Below the pieces are notes generated by a model. It did no database searches. It was given only the letters and a program-made list of their open reading frames with translations, and was not told the DNA's origin. 47,956 nt of DNA, from contig JAKAMR010000005.1 of assembly GCA_021812785.1 (NCBI GenBank), positions 1-47,956 on the forward strand, given 5' to 3'. Origin of the DNA: Nitrospirota bacterium (lineage in GTDB: Bacteria; Nitrospirota; Thermodesulfovibrionia; Thermodesulfovibrionales; JdFR-88). Positions 84-31,641 of this stretch are shown here, one piece after another; the stretch's first letter is position 1, and each line of letters opens with the position of its first letter. The position numbers were made by a program, and so were the translations under genes.

Positions 84-797
84 TTACTTCTTTATGATAA
101 AGTCTTTCTGAAGATACTCCTTGCTTAAGAAAATGGTCTTGCCCTCAAAAAAAATGTCGCCGTCCTTCTGCGCCTTGTTAAGTATCCTCGTAACGGTTTC
201 TCTGGTGATCCCGGTCATATCTGCTATGTTCTGATGGGTGAGCTTTATGTTCAGCATGGTGCCCTTTTCAGTGACCTGACCGTTCATGTCAGCAAGCATC
301 ATTAAAAGCGTTTTTACCCTTTGGGCGGCGTTGTTGAAGCTTAGTATCTGTATCCTCTCATATGCCCCCCTGATGCGCGCGCAAAAGATCCTGAGCAGCT
401 GCACAAGCACCTTGTTCTGGACAAAAAGAAGCGCGTAAAAATCATTTTTCGAGATTATTGCCACTTCGGAGTTCTCGATAGCCGCAACAGACGCCGGGAC
501 CGTCTTGCCGTCAATGAGCGACATCTCTCCGAAAAAGTCGCCTGAGCCGTGGAACGCCAGTATCGTTTCCCGCCCCTCCTCGGTCACCTGGAGCACCTTG
601 ACCTTGCCCGAAAGGATTATGTACATGTATTCGCTGGTGTCTTCCTCGTGCAGGATGACCTCGTTTTTTTTGAATTTTTTGACGCTGATCTTGCTGCTTA
701 TCTCGGCAAGCTCTGCATCAGAAAGCAGGGAAAACAGCTCTATGCTTTTAAGAGGAAGTAAGTTCACATTGCTATTATACATCTTTCTGCCGATCAT
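84..797 (-). CDS. Crp/Fnr-family transcriptional regulator
   Basis: A two-domain regulator of 237 aa, the usual size. Residues about 15-130 form a cyclic-nucleotide-binding-like beta-roll with the FGEMSL motif (89-94). A long helix follows, then a winged helix-turn-helix at about 185-215 (LTHQNIADMTGITRETVTR), which is typical of Crp/Fnr proteins. The Arg-Ser pair that holds the cAMP phosphate in E. coli CRP is not visible: the matching stretch reads KTVPASVAA, with Val/Pro in those positions. There is no N-terminal Cys cluster for an Fe-S centre as in FNR. The effector is therefore unknown. The ATG follows directly on the stop codon of the upstream ligase gene, so the two are probably co-transcribed. 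It may control the polysaccharide locus, but this is inferred from position only. Confidence 0.93.
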   Translation of the reverse strand: MIGRKMYNSNVNLLPLKSIELFSLLSDAELAEISSKISVKKFKKNEVILHEEDTSEYMYIILSGKVKVLQVTEEGRETILAFHGSGDFFGEMSLIDGKTVPASVAAIENSEVAIISKNDFYALLFVQNKVLVQLLRIFCARIRGAYERIQILSFNNAAQRVKTLLMMLADMNGQVTEKGTMLNIKLTHQNIADMTGITRETVTRILNKAQKDGDIFFEGKTIFLSKEYLQKDFIIKK

Positions 798-23411: not shown

Positions 23412-25361
23412 CTAGTTAGTCTGGAAGCTGCCTGTCTGGCTTTGCACGGTATTTCCGGCGTTATCCTGTGCGACCACCTTCCAATAATATGTGGTCTTGC
23501 TGGACAACCCGGAGACCGTATAGCTCAATGCACCCGTACTGGGGCTTACGCTTGAAGCAGGGGAAGAAGACGAGGTCTGCGTGCCGGCGCCCCCTCCACC
23601 GCATGATGCCAAAAGCCCGGCAGCCATAACGCCGGCCAGAAGGAGCATGAGCAGCCTGCGCCTGCGTCTGATGCCCCCGGGGACGACAAGCCCGAACATA
23701 AACAGCGCGGCCGCGCCGCCACCCATCGCGTACATGCTGTTTTGCGCGGATGCCACCTGTATGGGGCTTGCATCCGAGAAGTCCGGTTTTTTACCGACGT
23801 AGAGCGTATACGTAACGGGAGCCGAGTCCTTGGAGGGGCTCCATTGGAACGTGACAGTGGTGCTGACTGTCTGCCCTTGCGATGGCGTCAGCAACTGGGG
23901 CGCCGTTACCTGCCCGGATGAGGTAGTTGATGCTGGTGCGGTTGTTGCAGTGGAAGCGTTGCTGATTGCAGGTGTCGAACCATATGATGAAGTGGTTGAG
24001 GTGGAACCTGTGGTTGTTGAAGTGGAGGCCGTTCCGGAAGTTGACGTTGCCCCCGCTGTCGATGAGGTCCCTGAAATCATCGATGTTGTTCCTGTAGTTG
24101 ACGTATAAGTTGTTGTCGTGCCGGTTGTCGGAGTGGATGTTGTTGATGTGGTTGTCGAAGTCGAAGTCCCGCCCGAGCCAGATGTGGACGATGTTGAGCC
24201 TGAGGTTGAAGTCGATGTAGAGATCGATCCTGATGTTGAAGTTGAGGTTGAAGTTGAGGTTGAAAATTCATATGCCCCGATATCGGGAGGGTTTGCCAGG
24301 GGGTTTCCGTTTGCATCATATGTTCTGCCGGACCACGCTGTGCCGGTGCCTATGGCCGGAGATGAAGATTGCAGGTAAAAATCAAGGGCAGCCGCGTCTG
24401 CAAATATTGAAGACGGGCTGGCGTTCAATATGTTTCCTGTCCCCGAGGCATCGGCACCCATGGTAGAGGCTGTGGTCAGGTTATAACTTGCAGTAAAGCT
24501 TTGGCCCGAGGGATATGAAGCCGCGCCCCCTCCCGGCATATAAAAAATGTTGTCCTCCACCAGCGCGTTTGTCATGGGCATATAAAGACCAAGCTGCCCT
24601 GTATTGTTAGGGTTTGTGGAGGCGAAAGTATTGCCTATTATATAAAGTCCTGTAACAGTTGGGTTAGCATGAGAATTATCATATATTTGAATATCCCACC
24701 CTCTATCGTTATCATAGGTGACATTGTTTATAACCGTAAGGTTAGAGAATGCACCAGTAGAACCCGCTTGCCCCTCAAAATCTATTCCATGATCGGCAGA
24801 ATATCCGTCGCTGCCACCACCTGAATCATGCACAACATTACTATCTACAATTATGTTAGATGCAAAATCAAAATCTATACCAGCGCATCCATTATTGCCG
24901 GTACCGTTTGCACCTACTGGGCCAATGTTATTGCCATAGATGGTAATATCATGAATTCCGTCCCTTCCAACAATGCCATCATATGCGATATTTTGCATCC
25001 TGAAATTCATTATATTTATGTAACTGGCACTAATAGCCACTGCATAGGAACCACCACCTGCATCAATAACAGCACCCCATTTATTTTGTGACTCGAAAGT
25101 TATAGGAGCACCGGACGAACCGCTGCGGCTTATGGTAAACGGAGAATAAGTACCGTTCTCTATAATGACCGAATCACCAGGATTCACAATGCTAGCTGCA
25201 TAAGATGGCGTACGAAAAGGAGAACTCTGAGAACCGTTGTTGTTGTCGCTTCCCGAGGTGGAAACATAGTAGGTGGCGGCATTTGCCTCTCCAATAAAGG
25301 AGGAAATGCCTAAAACCACTACTGCCAAAAGGAAAATAGGGAGGAAAAAACTCTTCTTCAT
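23412..25361 (-). CDS. Secreted right-handed beta-helix protein with Ser/Thr linker and interrupted Fn3-like domain
   Basis: A 649-aa secreted protein. Start ATG 25361 has AGAGAGG eight bases ahead. Signal peptide 1-28 (ends GEANA). Residues about 30-365 are a DUF1565/parallel beta-helix domain opening YYVSTSGSDNNNGSQSSPFRT and running through repeats like NIIVDSNVVHDSGGG. Residues 366-485 are almost only Ser, Thr and Gly. An Fn3-like domain starts at 487 (APQLLTPSQGQTVSTTVTFQW) and resumes at 611 (ALSYTVSGLSSKTTYYWKVV). Between these halves lies a foreign-looking block: a hydrophobic segment, five Arg (565-569), a second hydrophobic segment and a lipobox-like LLASC (Cys587) followed by glycines. 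No lyase or epimerase active site could be recognised. It sits alone behind a riboswitch and ends at a strong terminator. Confidence 0.88.
   Translation of the reverse strand: MKKSFFLPIFLLAVVVLGISSFIGEANAATYYVSTSGSDNNNGSQSSPFRTPSYAASIVNPGDSVIIENGTYSPFTISRSGSSGAPITFESQNKWGAVIDAGGGSYAVAISASYINIMNFRMQNIAYDGIVGRDGIHDITIYGNNIGPVGANGTGNNGCAGIDFDFASNIIVDSNVVHDSGGGSDGYSADHGIDFEGQAGSTGAFSNLTVINNVTYDNDRGWDIQIYDNSHANPTVTGLYIIGNTFASTNPNNTGQLGLYMPMTNALVEDNIFYMPGGGAASYPSGQSFTASYNLTTASTMGADASGTGNILNASPSSIFADAAALDFYLQSSSPAIGTGTAWSGRTYDANGNPLANPPDIGAYEFSTSTSTSTSTSGSISTSTSTSGSTSSTSGSGGTSTSTTTSTTSTPTTGTTTTYTSTTGTTSMISGTSSTAGATSTSGTASTSTTTGSTSTTSSYGSTPAISNASTATTAPASTTSSGQVTAPQLLTPSQGQTVSTTVTFQWSPSKDSAPVTYTLYVGKKPDFSDASPIQVASAQNSMYAMGGGAAALFMFGLVVPGGIRRRRRLLMLLLAGVMAAGLLASCGGGGAGTQTSSSSPASSVSPSTGALSYTVSGLSSKTTYYWKVVAQDNAGNTVQSQTGSFQTN
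23532..23741 (-). other. Inserted membrane/Arg-cluster/lipobox segment within the Fn3-like domain
   Basis: Codons for about residues 541-610 of the beta-helix protein. In order: MYAMGGGAAALFMFGLVVPG (hydrophobic), IRRRRR, LLMLLLAGVMAAGLLASC (hydrophobic, lipobox-like), GGGG and a Ser-rich stretch. The block resembles a protein-sorting tail (short motif, membrane helix, Arg cluster) joined to a lipoprotein signal, yet it is internal and splits a beta-sandwich. No PEP motif is present. Confidence 0.7.
23907..24266. repeat. Low-complexity Ser/Thr-coding region
   Basis: A stretch of about 120 codons, almost only Ser, Thr and Gly, forms the linker between the beta-helix and the Fn3-like domain. 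At DNA level it is built of variants of short units such as gttgaagttgag (plus strand), denser toward the beta-helix side. It could change length by slippage and could carry O-glycans. Confidence 0.75.
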
Positions 25362-25394
25362 CTGTGAACCTCTCTTTGCTATTTGAAGATTTGA

Positions 25395-25434
25395 AACAAA
25401 AAAGGCCTGTTTCCCTCGAAAGGGAAACAGGCCT
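25395..25434 (-). terminator. Riboswitch expression platform: intrinsic terminator
   Basis: A perfect 14-bp stem, 25421-25434 pairing with 25403-25416, closed by a UUCG loop on the minus strand and followed by TTTTTTGT. It lies between the GEMM aptamer and the ATG of the beta-helix gene, so it would stop transcription before the gene. The 5' arm contains CTGTTTC, which is exactly complementary to GAAACAG in the 3' strand of aptamer helix P1. That gives a possible antiterminator that cannot coexist with P1. Confidence 0.9.
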
Positions 25435-25475
25435 AATCCATCCATACCGAGATAAAACTCAGGCAGGTAAGCACT

Positions 25476-25558
25476 GTTTCTTCGGCAGCCCGGCTGGCCT
25501 TTTCAAGGCCCCGCGGCTTTGTGCCCCCTGGTCGCCCAAGGTTTACCTTTTCGGAAAC
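25476..25558 (-). promoter_or_regulatory. Cyclic di-GMP-I (GEMM) riboswitch aptamer
   Basis: On the minus strand the consensus elements appear in order. P1 is GTTTC (25558-25554) pairing with GAAAC (25480-25476). Then GGTAAACC (25547-25540) leads into a hairpin CCTTGG-GCGA-CCAGGG (25541-25526) with the required GNRA tetraloop. GGCACAAAGCCGCGGG follows, then a GGCC-TTGAAAA-GGCC stem and AGCCGGGCTGCCGA. The last block is the same as I recall for Geobacter GEMM RNAs. The base three positions before AAACC is G, which in the c-di-GMP class is the ligand-contacting G20; the cGAMP-sensing Geobacter variants have A there. I therefore infer c-di-GMP. It controls the beta-helix gene through the terminator downstream. 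Confidence 0.87.
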
Positions 25559-25892
25559 GTCGTACAGCGGAGAAAAAACTCAAAGATCTACGCCTTAAGG
25601 CACTAATATTTTAAAATTAAAAACTTTTAAAAAAAGTAACAGATATCACATTGATAAGCTTTTCAGGGGAAATCACGGGGAATCAAAGAAATAAAAGGAC
25701 GTATGGGACTTGGCTCGAAAAATCCAGGAGGGAACGGGTAATGACAAGAGAGCAAAAAATACCGCAAAGGCAGAAATGGCCGCAGTTCAGGCTGCAAGGC
25801 ACATGTTACGGCCCGGCTTTTTTTAAGAGGTCTTAATGGAAATTAGAAAGGTACGCGCTGAGGTGAGGATAGATGTGCTTGGTGGGACTGTC
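25559..25892. other. Intergenic region upstream of the riboswitch
   Basis: About 330 nt between the end of the ExoA-like GT2 gene and the aptamer. The part next to the aptamer is AT-rich on the minus strand (TTTTAAAATATTAG near 25600-25615) and contains the palindrome GCCTTAAGGC (25592-25601). The promoter of the riboswitch transcript should be here, but no clear -35/-10 pair is visible. No gene, RNA or terminator of the GT2 block could be supported. Confidence 0.5.
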
Positions 25893-26995: not shown

Positions 26996-27721
26996 TCAGA
27001 TTACGTCCATCCATTGCAAGAACTTAAAAGATGGCTCAGGACCCTCAACTGCAAGACAAGCAGCATATCCCCTTCCTACGCTTATGCCGGTAAAAGACCA
27101 CCGTCCCTTCACGTTTGTTTCCAGCAGGTCGCGGCGCCCGGCAAACCCGGTGCCGATAGCCTTCAGATATGCCTCGTTTCGAGTCCAAGCCCTGAAAAAG
27201 GCCTTCTTCCTGATGTAACCCGGGGCCGGTTTAAGGCTCATGCCTTCTTCGGTCATTAAGAATTGTCCTGCAATTTCGGCAATTGAAGGGGCGGAAGAAA
27301 TGTATTCTATATCTACGCCTACTTTACGGTTCCGGGCAAATGCAAAAACCGCAAGGTCTTTTGAATGGGACACGTTGAAGCTGATCGTTTTTTCATTTGC
27401 TAGCTCAGGCTTTCCAAAGAGTCCGTATCTGAACCTCACTTTCCGCGGCTCCTCATTTAAATATCTCCCAATGATGGCCCTGAGTGTCCCGCGGGCGGCA
27501 ATAAAATTGGCGCTGTCCCGCTGAAAACGGAAGCAGCCTGCTCTTTGCAATTCATCTGATGACAGAGTTTGCCGCAGCATTTCCGTTTGCTCAGCAGGCA
27601 TTTGCAGGCTGGAGCGCCATACGTGCACTTCATCTTTTTTCCACTCGGGAAAGGAGGAAAAAAAAGACCATACGGGGAAAAGCTCCTTTTCAGAAGCAGG
27701 CACTGGCTGCATCAAGGTCAT
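26996..27721 (-). CDS. 4'-phosphopantetheinyl transferase (Sfp type)
   Basis: A 241-aa Sfp-family enzyme that moves phosphopantetheine from CoA to the Ser of carrier domains. Motifs: FNVSHSKDLAVFAF (NVSHS at 116-120), VGVDIE (135-139) with the metal-binding Asp and Glu, and WTRNEAYLKAIGTGF (from 179), where the common Lys before Glu is Asn, a variant I believe occurs in the family. ATG 27721 gives normal family length and overlaps the NRPS-like gene by 32 nt; a longer frame to 27844 lies within that gene. Its obvious client is the T domain of the gene it overlaps, so the two form a self-contained activation unit. Confidence 0.92.
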   Translation of the reverse strand: MTLMQPVPASEKELFPVWSFFSSFPEWKKDEVHVWRSSLQMPAEQTEMLRQTLSSDELQRAGCFRFQRDSANFIAARGTLRAIIGRYLNEEPRKVRFRYGLFGKPELANEKTISFNVSHSKDLAVFAFARNRKVGVDIEYISSAPSIAEIAGQFLMTEEGMSLKPAPGYIRKKAFFRAWTRNEAYLKAIGTGFAGRRDLLETNVKGRWSFTGISVGRGYAACLAVEGPEPSFKFLQWMDVI

Positions 27722-30407
27722 CTGCTGAAGCTCTGTTTGGTCTTCCGGTCCGCTGCTCAGGCCGGCTGCATTTCTTTTCATCTGCGTGGACCATGTCCAG
27801 GTAGTGGCCAAGCTCTTTGGTCCATATCCCGACATAGGGTTCATCCATCATGGTATGATGCACTGTCCCTTCAACTTCAGAGACGAATGTCCCCTTACCG
27901 CCAAATTTGCTCCAGAATTCTTTTCCACCGCTGTTCTCTCTCAGAAAAATAGCGGTCTTTCCGGGATAAGACCTGGCGGCATACCTTCCTGCCGTATAAA
28001 GACGATAAAAATCACGATAACGCCGCGGCACCGAATTGCCCATGGTGATGAGGCTGCGGCAGAAAAAGAAATTGATCTTTCCCATGGCGGATTGAAGGAT
28101 TACGCCTGATATATATGGAATTTTGCGAATGTTCAATAAAAGGGGGAGTTTCCTTCGCACATATCCGGCTTTGGTTTTTAATGGGGCATTGGGGGCAAGC
28201 GCGGCGTCAGCAGGGGGCATGCAATACGGAAGAGGCTCAATGAGGCAAAGCATTGATACCTCCTCCCCCTGCTTTATAAGCTGCTGAGCTATCTCAAGGG
28301 CCACCATCCCGCTGAAACAGTAGCCCCCAAGCAAATAGGGCCCCTTTGGCTGGACAGCCCTTATTTCATCCATGTGGTGTGCCGCCAGTTCTTCAACGGT
28401 ACGGAAAATTATGGGCTTGCCATAATCACCCTGAAGAATGATGCCGTGCACTGGGCGGCCGGGGCCAAGATATGGAGGACGGTAAGTGTTTATACCGATC
28501 CAGAAAAAAGGTTGTTTTGAGCCTCCTGACTGGACCATCACCGATGCAAACTCAGAGCGCGGCCCGTCTGCACGGAGGACTTTGGCCAACTGGCCTATCG
28601 TTGGCGACTGCAGTATAGCATTTACCGGCAGGGTCCTCCCCGTTTTTTTTCTTATCTCCGCTGCCAGCGCCGCTACAAGTAAGGAATGCCCGCCCAGGTC
28701 AAAAAAATTGTCAAACACCCCTGCCCGGTCTATCCTCAAGATTTTTTTCCAGATCCCCTCAAGCAGCTTTTCCTCAGGTGTGCGCGGTGGCAAATAATTC
28801 TCTTCTAGTTCGGAAATCCTGTAATCCGGGGGCGGCAGTGCCATGCGGTCCAATTTGCCGCTCAGGGTAAGTGGCAGTGCGTCAAGAAAGACGAACCGTG
28901 ACGGCACCATGTAATCTGGCAGCCGTTCTTTCAGTGAATTCCGAAGTTCACCTGGTGTTAAGGACTGGCCGTTATGGAGCACAATATATGCGGCCAGCAG
29001 CTTGCCTCCGTAAGAGTCATCACGTCCTGCCACGACTGCCTCTTTTACCGCCGGCAGCTCATTGAGCGCTTTCTCAACTTCGCTTATCTCGACCCTGTAT
29101 CCCCGCACTTTTACCTGCAAGTCCTTGCGGCCCAGATGAACCAGACATCCGTCCTTCTGCATATAACCAAGGTCGCCGGTTTTGTATGTGATCATATCTT
29201 CGTCACTGCCGTCACGCAGGAATGGAGATGGGCCCGGACCTTCTATCCTGTAATAGGACGAAGGAAGATACCGGCTTCTGACGGCAATTTCCCCCGCGCA
29301 GCCCGAAACAACCTCCCTGCCGTCCTCATCGAGTATCATCACCTGCATGTCTTCCACCTCATAGCCCGCGGGCACGGCCTCGCTGCTCACCAGCGTTTCG
29401 TGATCGCAAAAAAACTGCCGTATGATGTTCGTCTCAGTAGAAGCAAGAGACACATGAAAGATACAGCCCTTATGAAAATGCTTCTTGTAGATCTCCAGGT
29501 CGCTCTTACGGACGGCCTCGCCGGACAGCTTGATCAGCCGGAGTCTGGAAAAATCCTCGTTGCCTGTCAGTGAGGAAACGAGTTGGCGATATACCGAAGG
29601 GGCGAAGTGCAATATGGTTATCCCTTCCCTTGCCAGCCAACCGGCAATATTATCGATCCCATTTCTTTTAATGCTGTAGGGGTGCAGGGCCGCGCCATTG
29701 AGCAAGGCAACGAATATATTTGGCACCGACGCCGCGAAGCTGCAGGACCAGAGTAGAGATAGACGGTCATCGGAAGCGCAATGGAGCATATTGGTGCACC
29801 TCATGACATTATGAAGCACGTTCCTGTGGGTCTGGAACACCCCTTTTGGCACTCCGGTTGAGCCTGATGTAAAAATCAAATGGGCGGTTGCCGCCGGAGA
29901 GATCGGCAGATTCAGGTTTTCAGAAGAAAATTTCCTGCCAATCTCATCGGTGACCATAAGCCGCGAGGCGTCTGCACCCAGTCTGGAAGCGAGGCTTAAA
30001 TTTTTTTTATCGGTAAGAACGAGCCCGGCCCGTGACTCCTTGATGACGGAAGCGTTTTTTGCAGAAGGGAAGGATGTGTCCAAAACGACATAGGCTTTGC
30101 CTGCCTTCAATACCGCAAGCATAGCGGATATCAAGGGGGCACCGTGGTCAAGAAAAATGGCAACAGGCTCGGCGGAGAGCCCTCGCCTGTCAATTATTGC
30201 GCGCGCGGTCCGGTTGACCTTTCGATTTAAGGACTCATAGGTAAACTGCGCTTCATACGAACTTATGGCAATGTGCGATGGGTATTTGGCTGCCGTTTGC
30301 TCGAAACGGTCTGCAATGGATTGATTGATCTCGGACTTTTTGAATTTGGTGAACGGTTTGTCCGGCTCGACTCTCCGGTAAACTGGACAGGCCCTCTCCA
30401 GCTCCAT
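27690..30407 (-). CDS. Stand-alone NRPS-like enzyme: adenylation - carrier - thioesterase
   Basis: A 905-aa protein without a condensation domain. Adenylation domain about 25-525: A3 LIFTSGSTGVPKG (177-189), TGDLG (410-414), GRKDLQVKVRGYRVE (426-440), and A10 LTLSGKLDR with the catalytic Lys518. Carrier domain: FFDLGGHSLL with Ser575. Thioesterase about 632-875: GGYCFSG (694-700), in which the nucleophile is Cys697 rather than Ser, and a GTVHH motif (847-851) with the His. In the A4 motif FDAS is FAAS (224-227): the Asp that binds the alpha-amino group is Ala, so the substrate may not be an alpha-amino acid. It probably activates a carboxylic acid and passes it to the glycan or a lipid. Start fixed by AAGGAGG six bases ahead of the ATG. 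Confidence 0.92.
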   Translation of the reverse strand: MELERACPVYRRVEPDKPFTKFKKSEINQSIADRFEQTAAKYPSHIAISSYEAQFTYESLNRKVNRTARAIIDRRGLSAEPVAIFLDHGAPLISAMLAVLKAGKAYVVLDTSFPSAKNASVIKESRAGLVLTDKKNLSLASRLGADASRLMVTDEIGRKFSSENLNLPISPAATAHLIFTSGSTGVPKGVFQTHRNVLHNVMRCTNMLHCASDDRLSLLWSCSFAASVPNIFVALLNGAALHPYSIKRNGIDNIAGWLAREGITILHFAPSVYRQLVSSLTGNEDFSRLRLIKLSGEAVRKSDLEIYKKHFHKGCIFHVSLASTETNIIRQFFCDHETLVSSEAVPAGYEVEDMQVMILDEDGREVVSGCAGEIAVRSRYLPSSYYRIEGPGPSPFLRDGSDEDMITYKTGDLGYMQKDGCLVHLGRKDLQVKVRGYRVEISEVEKALNELPAVKEAVVAGRDDSYGGKLLAAYIVLHNGQSLTPGELRNSLKERLPDYMVPSRFVFLDALPLTLSGKLDRMALPPPDYRISELEENYLPPRTPEEKLLEGIWKKILRIDRAGVFDNFFDLGGHSLLVAALAAEIRKKTGRTLPVNAILQSPTIGQLAKVLRADGPRSEFASVMVQSGGSKQPFFWIGINTYRPPYLGPGRPVHGIILQGDYGKPIIFRTVEELAAHHMDEIRAVQPKGPYLLGGYCFSGMVALEIAQQLIKQGEEVSMLCLIEPLPYCMPPADAALAPNAPLKTKAGYVRRKLPLLLNIRKIPYISGVILQSAMGKINFFFCRSLITMGNSVPRRYRDFYRLYTAGRYAARSYPGKTAIFLRENSGGKEFWSKFGGKGTFVSEVEGTVHHTMMDEPYVGIWTKELGHYLDMVHADEKKCSRPEQRTGRPNRASADDLDAASACF

Positions 30408-30531: not shown

Positions 30532-31641
30532 TCAGAGAGACCGTTTTGTATTTTTTGTCCTTAGATAATCGGCCAGTGATTTTGCCGCTTTTTTTGGGGC
30601 CCCGATGGACGCTGCACTTTTTCTTGCCTGCGGTATTCCTTTTAGCCTGTAATCATGATTTGCGGGGTCTACGAATTCTGGCTCAACTCCGACTAAATTG
30701 CTTTTTATCTCTGAATTTAAGGGCGCTGGCCCGCACAGGAGAGCAATACCTCTTGAAGTTATATTATTTTCAATTGTAATCGGCGCCCCTTTGCCGGGGA
30801 AGATGGCACATCTGTTTGGCTTAAAAAAGATATTATTTCTGATCACCACATTCCTCTGTCCGCTCGCTATAAGTATCTGTCCCTGTCTGCCCGGATTTGC
30901 GCCTGCAAATGTGTTGTCATAGATATAAACCCTGTCAGCTGGCCCGCCATAAAGATGGACTTGCCAGCCAGCTCTGAAATCGTAAAGAATGTTGTTTCTG
31001 ATCACTATATCCCGGCCTCTTACATAGATGCCATGGTCCTGGTTATAGTCCTGGTCCGCGCCGCTGGGGAACCTGCCGACCGTATGAAGCACATTTCCGG
31101 CAATAACTATCCGCCTTGGCTGCCGCCCTATGAATATTGCGTCCGACCCATCGTCTCCAGGGGGCACTATCCTTCTGCCTATCGAATGTATCAGGTTGTC
31201 TCTAAGCTCTATGTCGTGGTCATCGCTGTTTAAAAAAAATCCGACACGGCAAAAACCCCTAAGCTGAAAGCCTTCAACCTTTATATAACCAACATCGTCG
31301 AATGACACCCCGTAATTAGTCGTATTACTGCCCCCGTCCAGTATAGCTCCCCATTTCTTCGCGGATTTAAAGGTTATCCATAGGTGAGCGGTCCCGCTCT
31401 GCCTTATCCTGACAAGGCTGCTCCTGGTAAGATCCACATAGAGGCCGTTTTCCACAATCACGGTATCACCGGGCCTCACATGGTTTGCGGCCTTTTGGAT
31501 GGTCCTGAAAGGCTGCTGTCTCGTGCCAGGGCCAAAATCGGAACCTGAAGGCGAAACGTAATATACTGCGGCCCTTACGGCCGGTGTTGTAATCTGAACA
31601 TAAAAAAGGACGAATGCCAGCACAAAAAGTGACTTTCTCAT
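30532..31641 (-). CDS. Secreted right-handed parallel beta-helix protein
   Basis: A 369-aa protein with a signal peptide (cleavage near TTPAVRA). It opens with the DUF1565 signature YYVSPSGSDFGPGTRQQPFRT, followed by NHVRPGDTVIVENGLY. Beta-helix coils such as DIELRDNLIHSIG, RIVIAGNVLHTVG, DIVIRNNILYDFRAG and NVVIRNNIFFK continue to about residue 320. The C-terminus is short and basic. It resembles the beta-helix half of the larger riboswitch-controlled protein but lacks the Ser/Thr and Fn3 parts. No catalytic residues of polysaccharide lyases or of mannuronan epimerases could be picked out. The ATG has AAAGGAG about 11 bases ahead, 16 nt after the previous gene. It may bind or modify the exported polymer in the periplasm. 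Confidence 0.9.
   Translation of the reverse strand: MRKSLFVLAFVLFYVQITTPAVRAAVYYVSPSGSDFGPGTRQQPFRTIQKAANHVRPGDTVIVENGLYVDLTRSSLVRIRQSGTAHLWITFKSAKKWGAILDGGSNTTNYGVSFDDVGYIKVEGFQLRGFCRVGFFLNSDDHDIELRDNLIHSIGRRIVPPGDDGSDAIFIGRQPRRIVIAGNVLHTVGRFPSGADQDYNQDHGIYVRGRDIVIRNNILYDFRAGWQVHLYGGPADRVYIYDNTFAGANPGRQGQILIASGQRNVVIRNNIFFKPNRCAIFPGKGAPITIENNITSRGIALLCGPAPLNSEIKSNLVGVEPEFVDPANHDYRLKGIPQARKSAASIGAPKKAAKSLADYLRTKNTKRSL

Follow-up and report, generated by a model that had tools for sequence, protein, structure and literature searches.

A class-I c-di-GMP riboswitch as the probable OFF switch of a beta-helix gene in Nitrospirota, in a leader with boxA-like and Crp-type motifs

In a 47,956-nucleotide stretch of DNA from a Nitrospirota bacterium (the whole stretch analysed, hereafter the window), a class-I c-di-GMP riboswitch lies ahead of a gene encoding a beta-helix protein. 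The best explanation of the leader as a whole is that the riboswitch serves as a transcriptional OFF switch of this gene and that the leader is Crp-activated and boxA-bearing, a reading that we regard as likely. Read 5' to 3' on the minus strand, the leader comprises a degenerate Crp-type palindrome (25650-25635), a boxA-like motif (25588-25580), the aptamer (25558-25476), a linker and an intrinsic terminator (25434-25394), followed by the purine run AGAGAGG and the ATG at 25361 of a 649-codon gene. The transcript would probably begin at a promoter activated through the Crp-type site, and a boxA of the rrn type probably precedes the aptamer. With c-di-GMP bound, P1 would close and leave the 5' arm of the terminator free, the hairpin would form and RNA polymerase would halt before the gene; without c-di-GMP, the 3' strand of P1 (GAAACAG-U-GCUU) would pair with the 5' arm and polymerase would read through. 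Taken alone, the aptamer with its terminator belongs to a known class and is unremarkable within it. Its combination with boxA and a Crp site appears to be new as far as the searched library shows, the novelty being the conserved upstream pair of boxA-like and Crp-type elements that accompanies the terminator form of this riboswitch type. These upstream elements, the conservation of the module and a lipobox-bearing tail of the target go beyond a first-pass annotation of the window, which had proposed the aptamer, the terminator and the beta-helix target.

That annotation had named P1, a GNRA loop, CACAAAGCC and GCCGGGCTGCCGAA as marks of a GEMM-I aptamer that a search with RF01051 should recognize. 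All of them are found on the minus strand within 25395-25558, the loop being GCGA, and the covariance-model search upholds the identity with a match at 25476-25558 (-) of 63.7 bits against a cut-off of 35 (E 3.6e-12 in the whole 2.58-Mb genome). By the aptamer model and alignment, P1 is formed by 25552-25558 and 25476-25484 (25481-25482 bulged), P2 with its GCGA loop occupies 25526-25541 and P3 occupies 25487-25518. The base three before AAACC, read directly from the window, is G, the c-di-GMP type, as had been claimed. The contact bases are canonical, with G at 25547, A at 25520 and C at 25485, positions that we take to be the G20, A47 and C92 places. Since these places are canonical, c-di-GMP is the expected ligand, and by its sequence the aptamer is filed under canonical c-di-GMP-I. 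Beside the contact bases is a U-A pair, shared by 11 of 13 aligned leaders, the other two having U-G. The genome holds nine GGDEF matches.

The sister family c-di-GMP-I-GGC (RF03167), which may prefer another ligand, was considered as the true family of the aptamer since cmscan ranks it first and retains it, at 61.5 bits against a cut-off of 59. This assignment is improbable: the RF01051 score lies well beyond its own cut-off, and at the A47 place the window carries A, unlike the RF03167 consensus, whose G there we infer to be the defining trait of that family. The GGC variant was set aside on account of this A. A promiscuous or cGAMP-sensing aptamer is hardly probable either. While an A three before AAAC[C/T] does occur in some relatives, in 7 of the 93 aptamers fetched (the script found no anchor in 30), the cGAMP type was set aside on account of the G of the window, and in a Geobacter GEMM-Ib RNA an A20G change is described as switching selectivity from cGAMP to c-di-GMP (PMC6456294). 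The Geobacter cGAMP riboswitches share with the window their fold class, the control of surface-related genes and the occurrence of tandem copies, but they have A20 and ON control, whereas the window has G and an OFF layout.

The terminator (25394-25434, minus strand) is built as first proposed, with 14 perfect pairs between arms at 25421-25434 and 25403-25416, a TTCG loop and a T tract at 25394-25402. Because the shuffles in the terminator scan also gave terminator-like sites (0.6 on average), that scan by itself proves little, and the stronger case comes from conservation in relatives. CTGTTTC in the 5' arm pairs exactly with GAAACAG in the P1 3' strand over 7 bp, another point on which the first-pass annotation was correct, and the pairing can be extended to 11 bp with one bulged base (GAAACAG-U-GCUU with AGGC-CUGUUUC). 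Folding and relatives place the strand common to P1 and the antiterminator at 25469-25480 (-), with 25476-25480 belonging to P1, in which GUUUC pairs with GAAAC. The leader thus shows the arrangement of a transcriptional OFF riboswitch, in which the P1 3' strand can capture the 5' arm of an intrinsic terminator. Since these strands are complementary, P1 and the antiterminator should be mutually exclusive, and the proposed OFF layout gains support from relatives that keep all three competing strands; the effect of the ligand is a prediction from sequence.

The estimated energies are -4.8 kcal/mol for a duplex of the outer P1 strands, -10.4 for the strand-arm duplex and -25.5 for the terminator hairpin. 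In minimum free energy (MFE) folding of a growing transcript, sampled in steps of 4 nt, lengths of 165-181 show the strand-arm helix and lengths from 185 on show the terminator. Since the terminator hairpin is far more stable than the antiterminator duplex, the switch would have to be kinetic. Cd1 of Clostridioides difficile is likewise described as a kinetic switch (PMC9262584), and it resembles the proposed switch of the window as a GEMM-I transcriptional OFF switch with an antiterminator that competes with P1 and a terminator compatible with the bound aptamer. The two differ in target and host, and a Crp-type site and boxA-like motif are added upstream in the order to which the window belongs.

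Matches to RF01051 were found in 31 of 61 genomes (that of the window and 60 relatives), the window's genome having two copies besides the one described here, on contigs C79 and C55. From the 94 matches, 93 were fetched, a contig-end fragment (G039:C93) being left out, and 16 of the 93 were sorted by eye as window-like leaders, or type A. A 13-row alignment omits type-A leaders G027:C32, G027:C40 and G002:C23, and a covariance model (R1) was built from 13 type-A leaders. At E <= 1e-4, R1 finds hits, other GEMM-I types among them, in 80 of the order's 176 genomes; the type-A set was taken as the 53 matches of at least 79.7 bits among the matches listed, which come from 33 genomes in 7 families. 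By script, 43 of these 53 strong matches, again among those listed, have an intrinsic terminator, and the 10 in which the script found none are counted apart. GCCTGTTT is present in 35 of the 43 terminator-bearing leaders, with close variants in the other eight. Pairing of the P1 strand within the terminator arm reaches 7/7 pairs in 29 leaders, 6/7 in 11 and fewer in 3; in two leaders (G120:C98 and G128:C18) the script had set the arm short. With the linker allowed, a perfect 7-bp partner is found on the 5' side in 31 of 43 (shuffled mean 3.4, maximum 8) and one with at most one mismatch in 42 of 43 (shuffled mean 25, maximum 33).

Among the 13 aligned leaders, P2 shows both-sided pair changes at 3 of 6 positions; the P1 count is lowered by MAFFT, which displaced P1 by one column in 2 of the 13 rows. 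Between the P1 and antiterminator strands there is no covariation apart from G-U changes. Since these strands are conserved and do not covary, shared descent accounts for part of the counts: the 43 rows are related and are not 43 independent events, and the shuffles preserve dinucleotides but not relatedness. By its sequence, the aptamer-terminator module is conserved in the order.

Upstream of the aptamer, the boxA-like motif GATCTTTGA (25580-25588, minus strand) differs at one position from GTTCTTTGA, which was first spotted by eye in the initial type-A leaders and tested afterwards. Within 75 nt before the aptamer, GTTCTTTGA is exact in 12 of the 43 terminator-bearing type-A leaders (shuffle mean 0.03, maximum 1) and present with at most one mismatch in 24 (shuffle mean 0.9, maximum 4). 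For the 29 leaders outside the discovery set, these numbers are 8 and 17. At the same threshold, no copy was found in the 10 type-A leaders without a terminator or in 70 nt before the 77 other GEMM-I leaders, of which 28 have a terminator and some are second aptamers placed in tandem behind a type-A unit. Allowing two mismatches, 29 of 33 copies start 26-32 nt before the start of the model, and GATCTTTGA itself recurs in other leaders. Over the whole window, GTTCTTTGAAA with up to two mismatches is not enriched (19 found, 20.4 expected). The motif is mainly a feature of the window's order, since in other orders of the phylum only 2 of 15 leaders have it, both exact, and none further has it with one mismatch; these 15 include the near-identical L345 and L346 from one genome and also L355, whose leader is that of L137.

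A boxA of the rrn type precedes 16S rRNA in two of six 16S leaders examined, as GTTCTTTGAAAA in a genome of the window's family (G008) and as GTTCTTTGACAA in G036, and the window copy is like the rrn boxA of its own lineage with one base different. The other four 16S leaders, two belonging to a single genome, lack a copy with at most one mismatch, and the window's own assembly gave no 16S match. Two more exact copies in G008 run into what we presume to be the starts of 16S and 23S rRNA. Rather than being a NusB-S10 site, the motif might be an upstream strand that competes with P1, since its UUCUUUG could form seven pairs, one of them G-U, with CGAAGAA on the P1 3' side. This explanation is unlikely, though it deserves more weight than the rival ligand assignments. 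Among the 33 copies, position 2 is T in 16, A in 9, C in 6 and G in 2, and position 8 is G in 29 and A in 4; these substitutions disrupt pairing with the CGAAGAA strand, which hardly varies, while a boxA tolerates changes at positions 2 and 8. Moreover, the helix is absent from the MFE structures of the window, and the same motif stands before 16S rRNA in the two relatives.

The Crp-type site TGTGATATCTGTTACT (25635-25650, minus strand) is palindrome-like and has two mismatches to TGTGAN6TCACA. With at most one mismatch, TGTGAN6TCACA occurs in 19 of the 43 terminator-bearing type-A leaders (shuffle maximum 1), in 4 of the 10 without a terminator and in 1 of the 77 other GEMM-I leaders, and 5 of the 15 leaders from other orders of the phylum have it as well (shuffle maximum 1). 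Outside the discovery set, the site is found in 8 of 29 leaders. In the window, its centre is 54 nt before the boxA-like motif, the same distance as in G002:C102 and G008:C4, with others ranging from 15 to 99. A candidate reader is encoded in the same locus at 84-797 (-), a Crp-family regulator with a cNMP-binding domain and a Crp helix-turn-helix. It contains ITRETVTRI, and E. coli CRP has RETVGR at the equivalent place. By virtue of this resemblance, the regulator may read TGTGA; the genome encodes two more Crp-family proteins.

Taken in order, a Crp-type promoter that turns expression on, an rrn-type boxA that loads NusB-S10 and a c-di-GMP riboswitch terminator that turns it off would form a cassette of this bacterial order in which rrn-type antitermination is coupled to a riboswitch. 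We put this forward tentatively, as a possibility that falls somewhat short of even. Since boxA is found only with the terminator form of the type, a Nus complex may govern the pausing, or the shielding from Rho, on which the ligand decision depends. NusB-S10 binds boxA in rrn and CRISPR leaders and in the E. coli suhB leader, which share with the window a boxA motif early in the transcript (PMC12691694 and PMC10931766); in the passages covered, no riboswitch follows the boxA. The NusB-S10 site of the window is putative. No riboswitch leader with a boxA was found in the one library searched. If functional, the pairing of boxA and riboswitch would offer a natural system for asking whether Nus complexes shape the decision time of a riboswitch.

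The window copies of the two upstream motifs carry one (boxA) and two (Crp-type) mismatches, and a promoter scan found none of the sigma-70 type. Both facts could mean that the leader is a relic with degenerate copies and that the gene is perhaps expressed from elsewhere. There is little likelihood of this, as the aptamer, P1, antiterminator strand and terminator are intact and agree with the consensus of the type, and the boxA-like variant of the window is seen again in other leaders. The promoter result, like the 10 type-A leaders in which the script found no terminator, also weighs against the OFF-switch reading.

The target, P0001 (23412-25361, minus strand; 649 amino acids), starts at ATG 25361 and not at the mechanical ORF start of 25445. 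The earlier description of a beta-helix protein stands, with predicted export and anchoring added, while its placement on the outer surface is still conjecture. From sequence, profile, fold and AlphaFold analyses, it consists of a signal-peptide-like start, a Pel9A-like beta-helix (about residues 30-366), a Ser/Thr linker and a C-terminal Fn3-like domain (484-649; 23415-23912, minus strand) into which a hydrophobic segment, RRRRR and a lipobox (LLASC-GGGG) are inserted. In the PDB, the fold closest to the beta-helix is that of pectate lyase Pel9A (1ru4, E 5.5e-8), with alginate, GH136 and rhamnogalacturonan enzymes next; sequence profiles are led by xylosidase 3vst (2e-13, N-terminal part only) and 1ru4 (3.1e-13). 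In the AlphaFold model (mean pLDDT 73), the beta-helix and both Fn3-like halves are confident, and the linker and insert are poor. The C-terminal part resembles the lipo-invert anchor NF058595 of NCBIfam, with 37.6 bits in the genome search against a cut-off of 37, the whole protein scoring 33.4, below that cut-off; the same profile matches 5 of 14 control genomes below cut-off. The word "lipo-invert" is absent from the literature in the library searched. If the protein were cut at the lipobox, half of the Fn3-like domain would remain in lipidated form and might act as a split-domain anchor. The C-terminal domain has one homologue from a "Nitrospiraceae bacterium", and homologous tails also occur on FG-GAP and peptidase-S8-type proteins.

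The window's family has seven type-A leaders. Five of them stand ahead of a gene for a beta-helix protein with a tail of this kind (the window, G005:C17, G008:C4 and G008:C35 twice), and contig ends truncate the other two. Outside this family, many targets of type-A leaders are, by sequence, Fn3-like or other exported proteins. P0001 sits in a long minus-strand polysaccharide run that encodes a flippase, an O-antigen-ligase/Wzy-like protein, chain-length and export proteins, many glycosyltransferases, three asparagine synthases and a deacetylase. A predicted anchored, sugar-lyase-like protein in a large polysaccharide locus would be tied to c-di-GMP in the off direction. It would be expected in free cells with low signal and silenced in biofilm cells with high signal, a pattern that would make sense for an enzyme trimming the matrix of its own cell.

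The gene next to P0001 (21612-23099, minus strand) has a lipoprotein-like start and then a long GAS repeat with a collagen-like match below cut-off. The polysaccharide locus also holds, at 26996-30407 (-), an NRPS-like AMP-binding/PP-binding/thioesterase protein and a 4'-phosphopantetheinyl transferase. A second beta-helix protein of 369 amino acids (30532-31641, minus strand) is without a riboswitch match in the window. For the contig that carries the window (G000:C111), the listed length of 49751 is at odds with the placement of the window at 11245-59200.

Further kinds of GEMM-I aptamer occur in the genome and its relatives. Two other types in the genus are represented by L113 (G000:C79), L114 (G000:C55) and loci of the same family, with a terminator close behind; the script found no convincing ORF soon after aptamers of these types. 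Many relatives outside the window's family have another type with C-G for G-C beside the contact bases (AAAGCCAAACC with CGGAAAGC), and in this type the terminator is often absent. The aptamers with A three before the anchor, as in the cGAMP type, are those of L146, L178, L179, L182, L184, L185 and L126, and L157, from the same genome as A-bearing leaders, has aptamers with G or no anchor. L137 (G027:C40) and L355 (G402:C21) have an identical leader in genomes of different orders, perhaps through a shared or misbinned contig. In L133, L134 and L135 (G041 and G056), a type-A switch with its terminator has a second GEMM-I aptamer of another type within about 150 nt, and these tandem aptamers precede Fn3-like exported proteins, with outputs that are possibly different.
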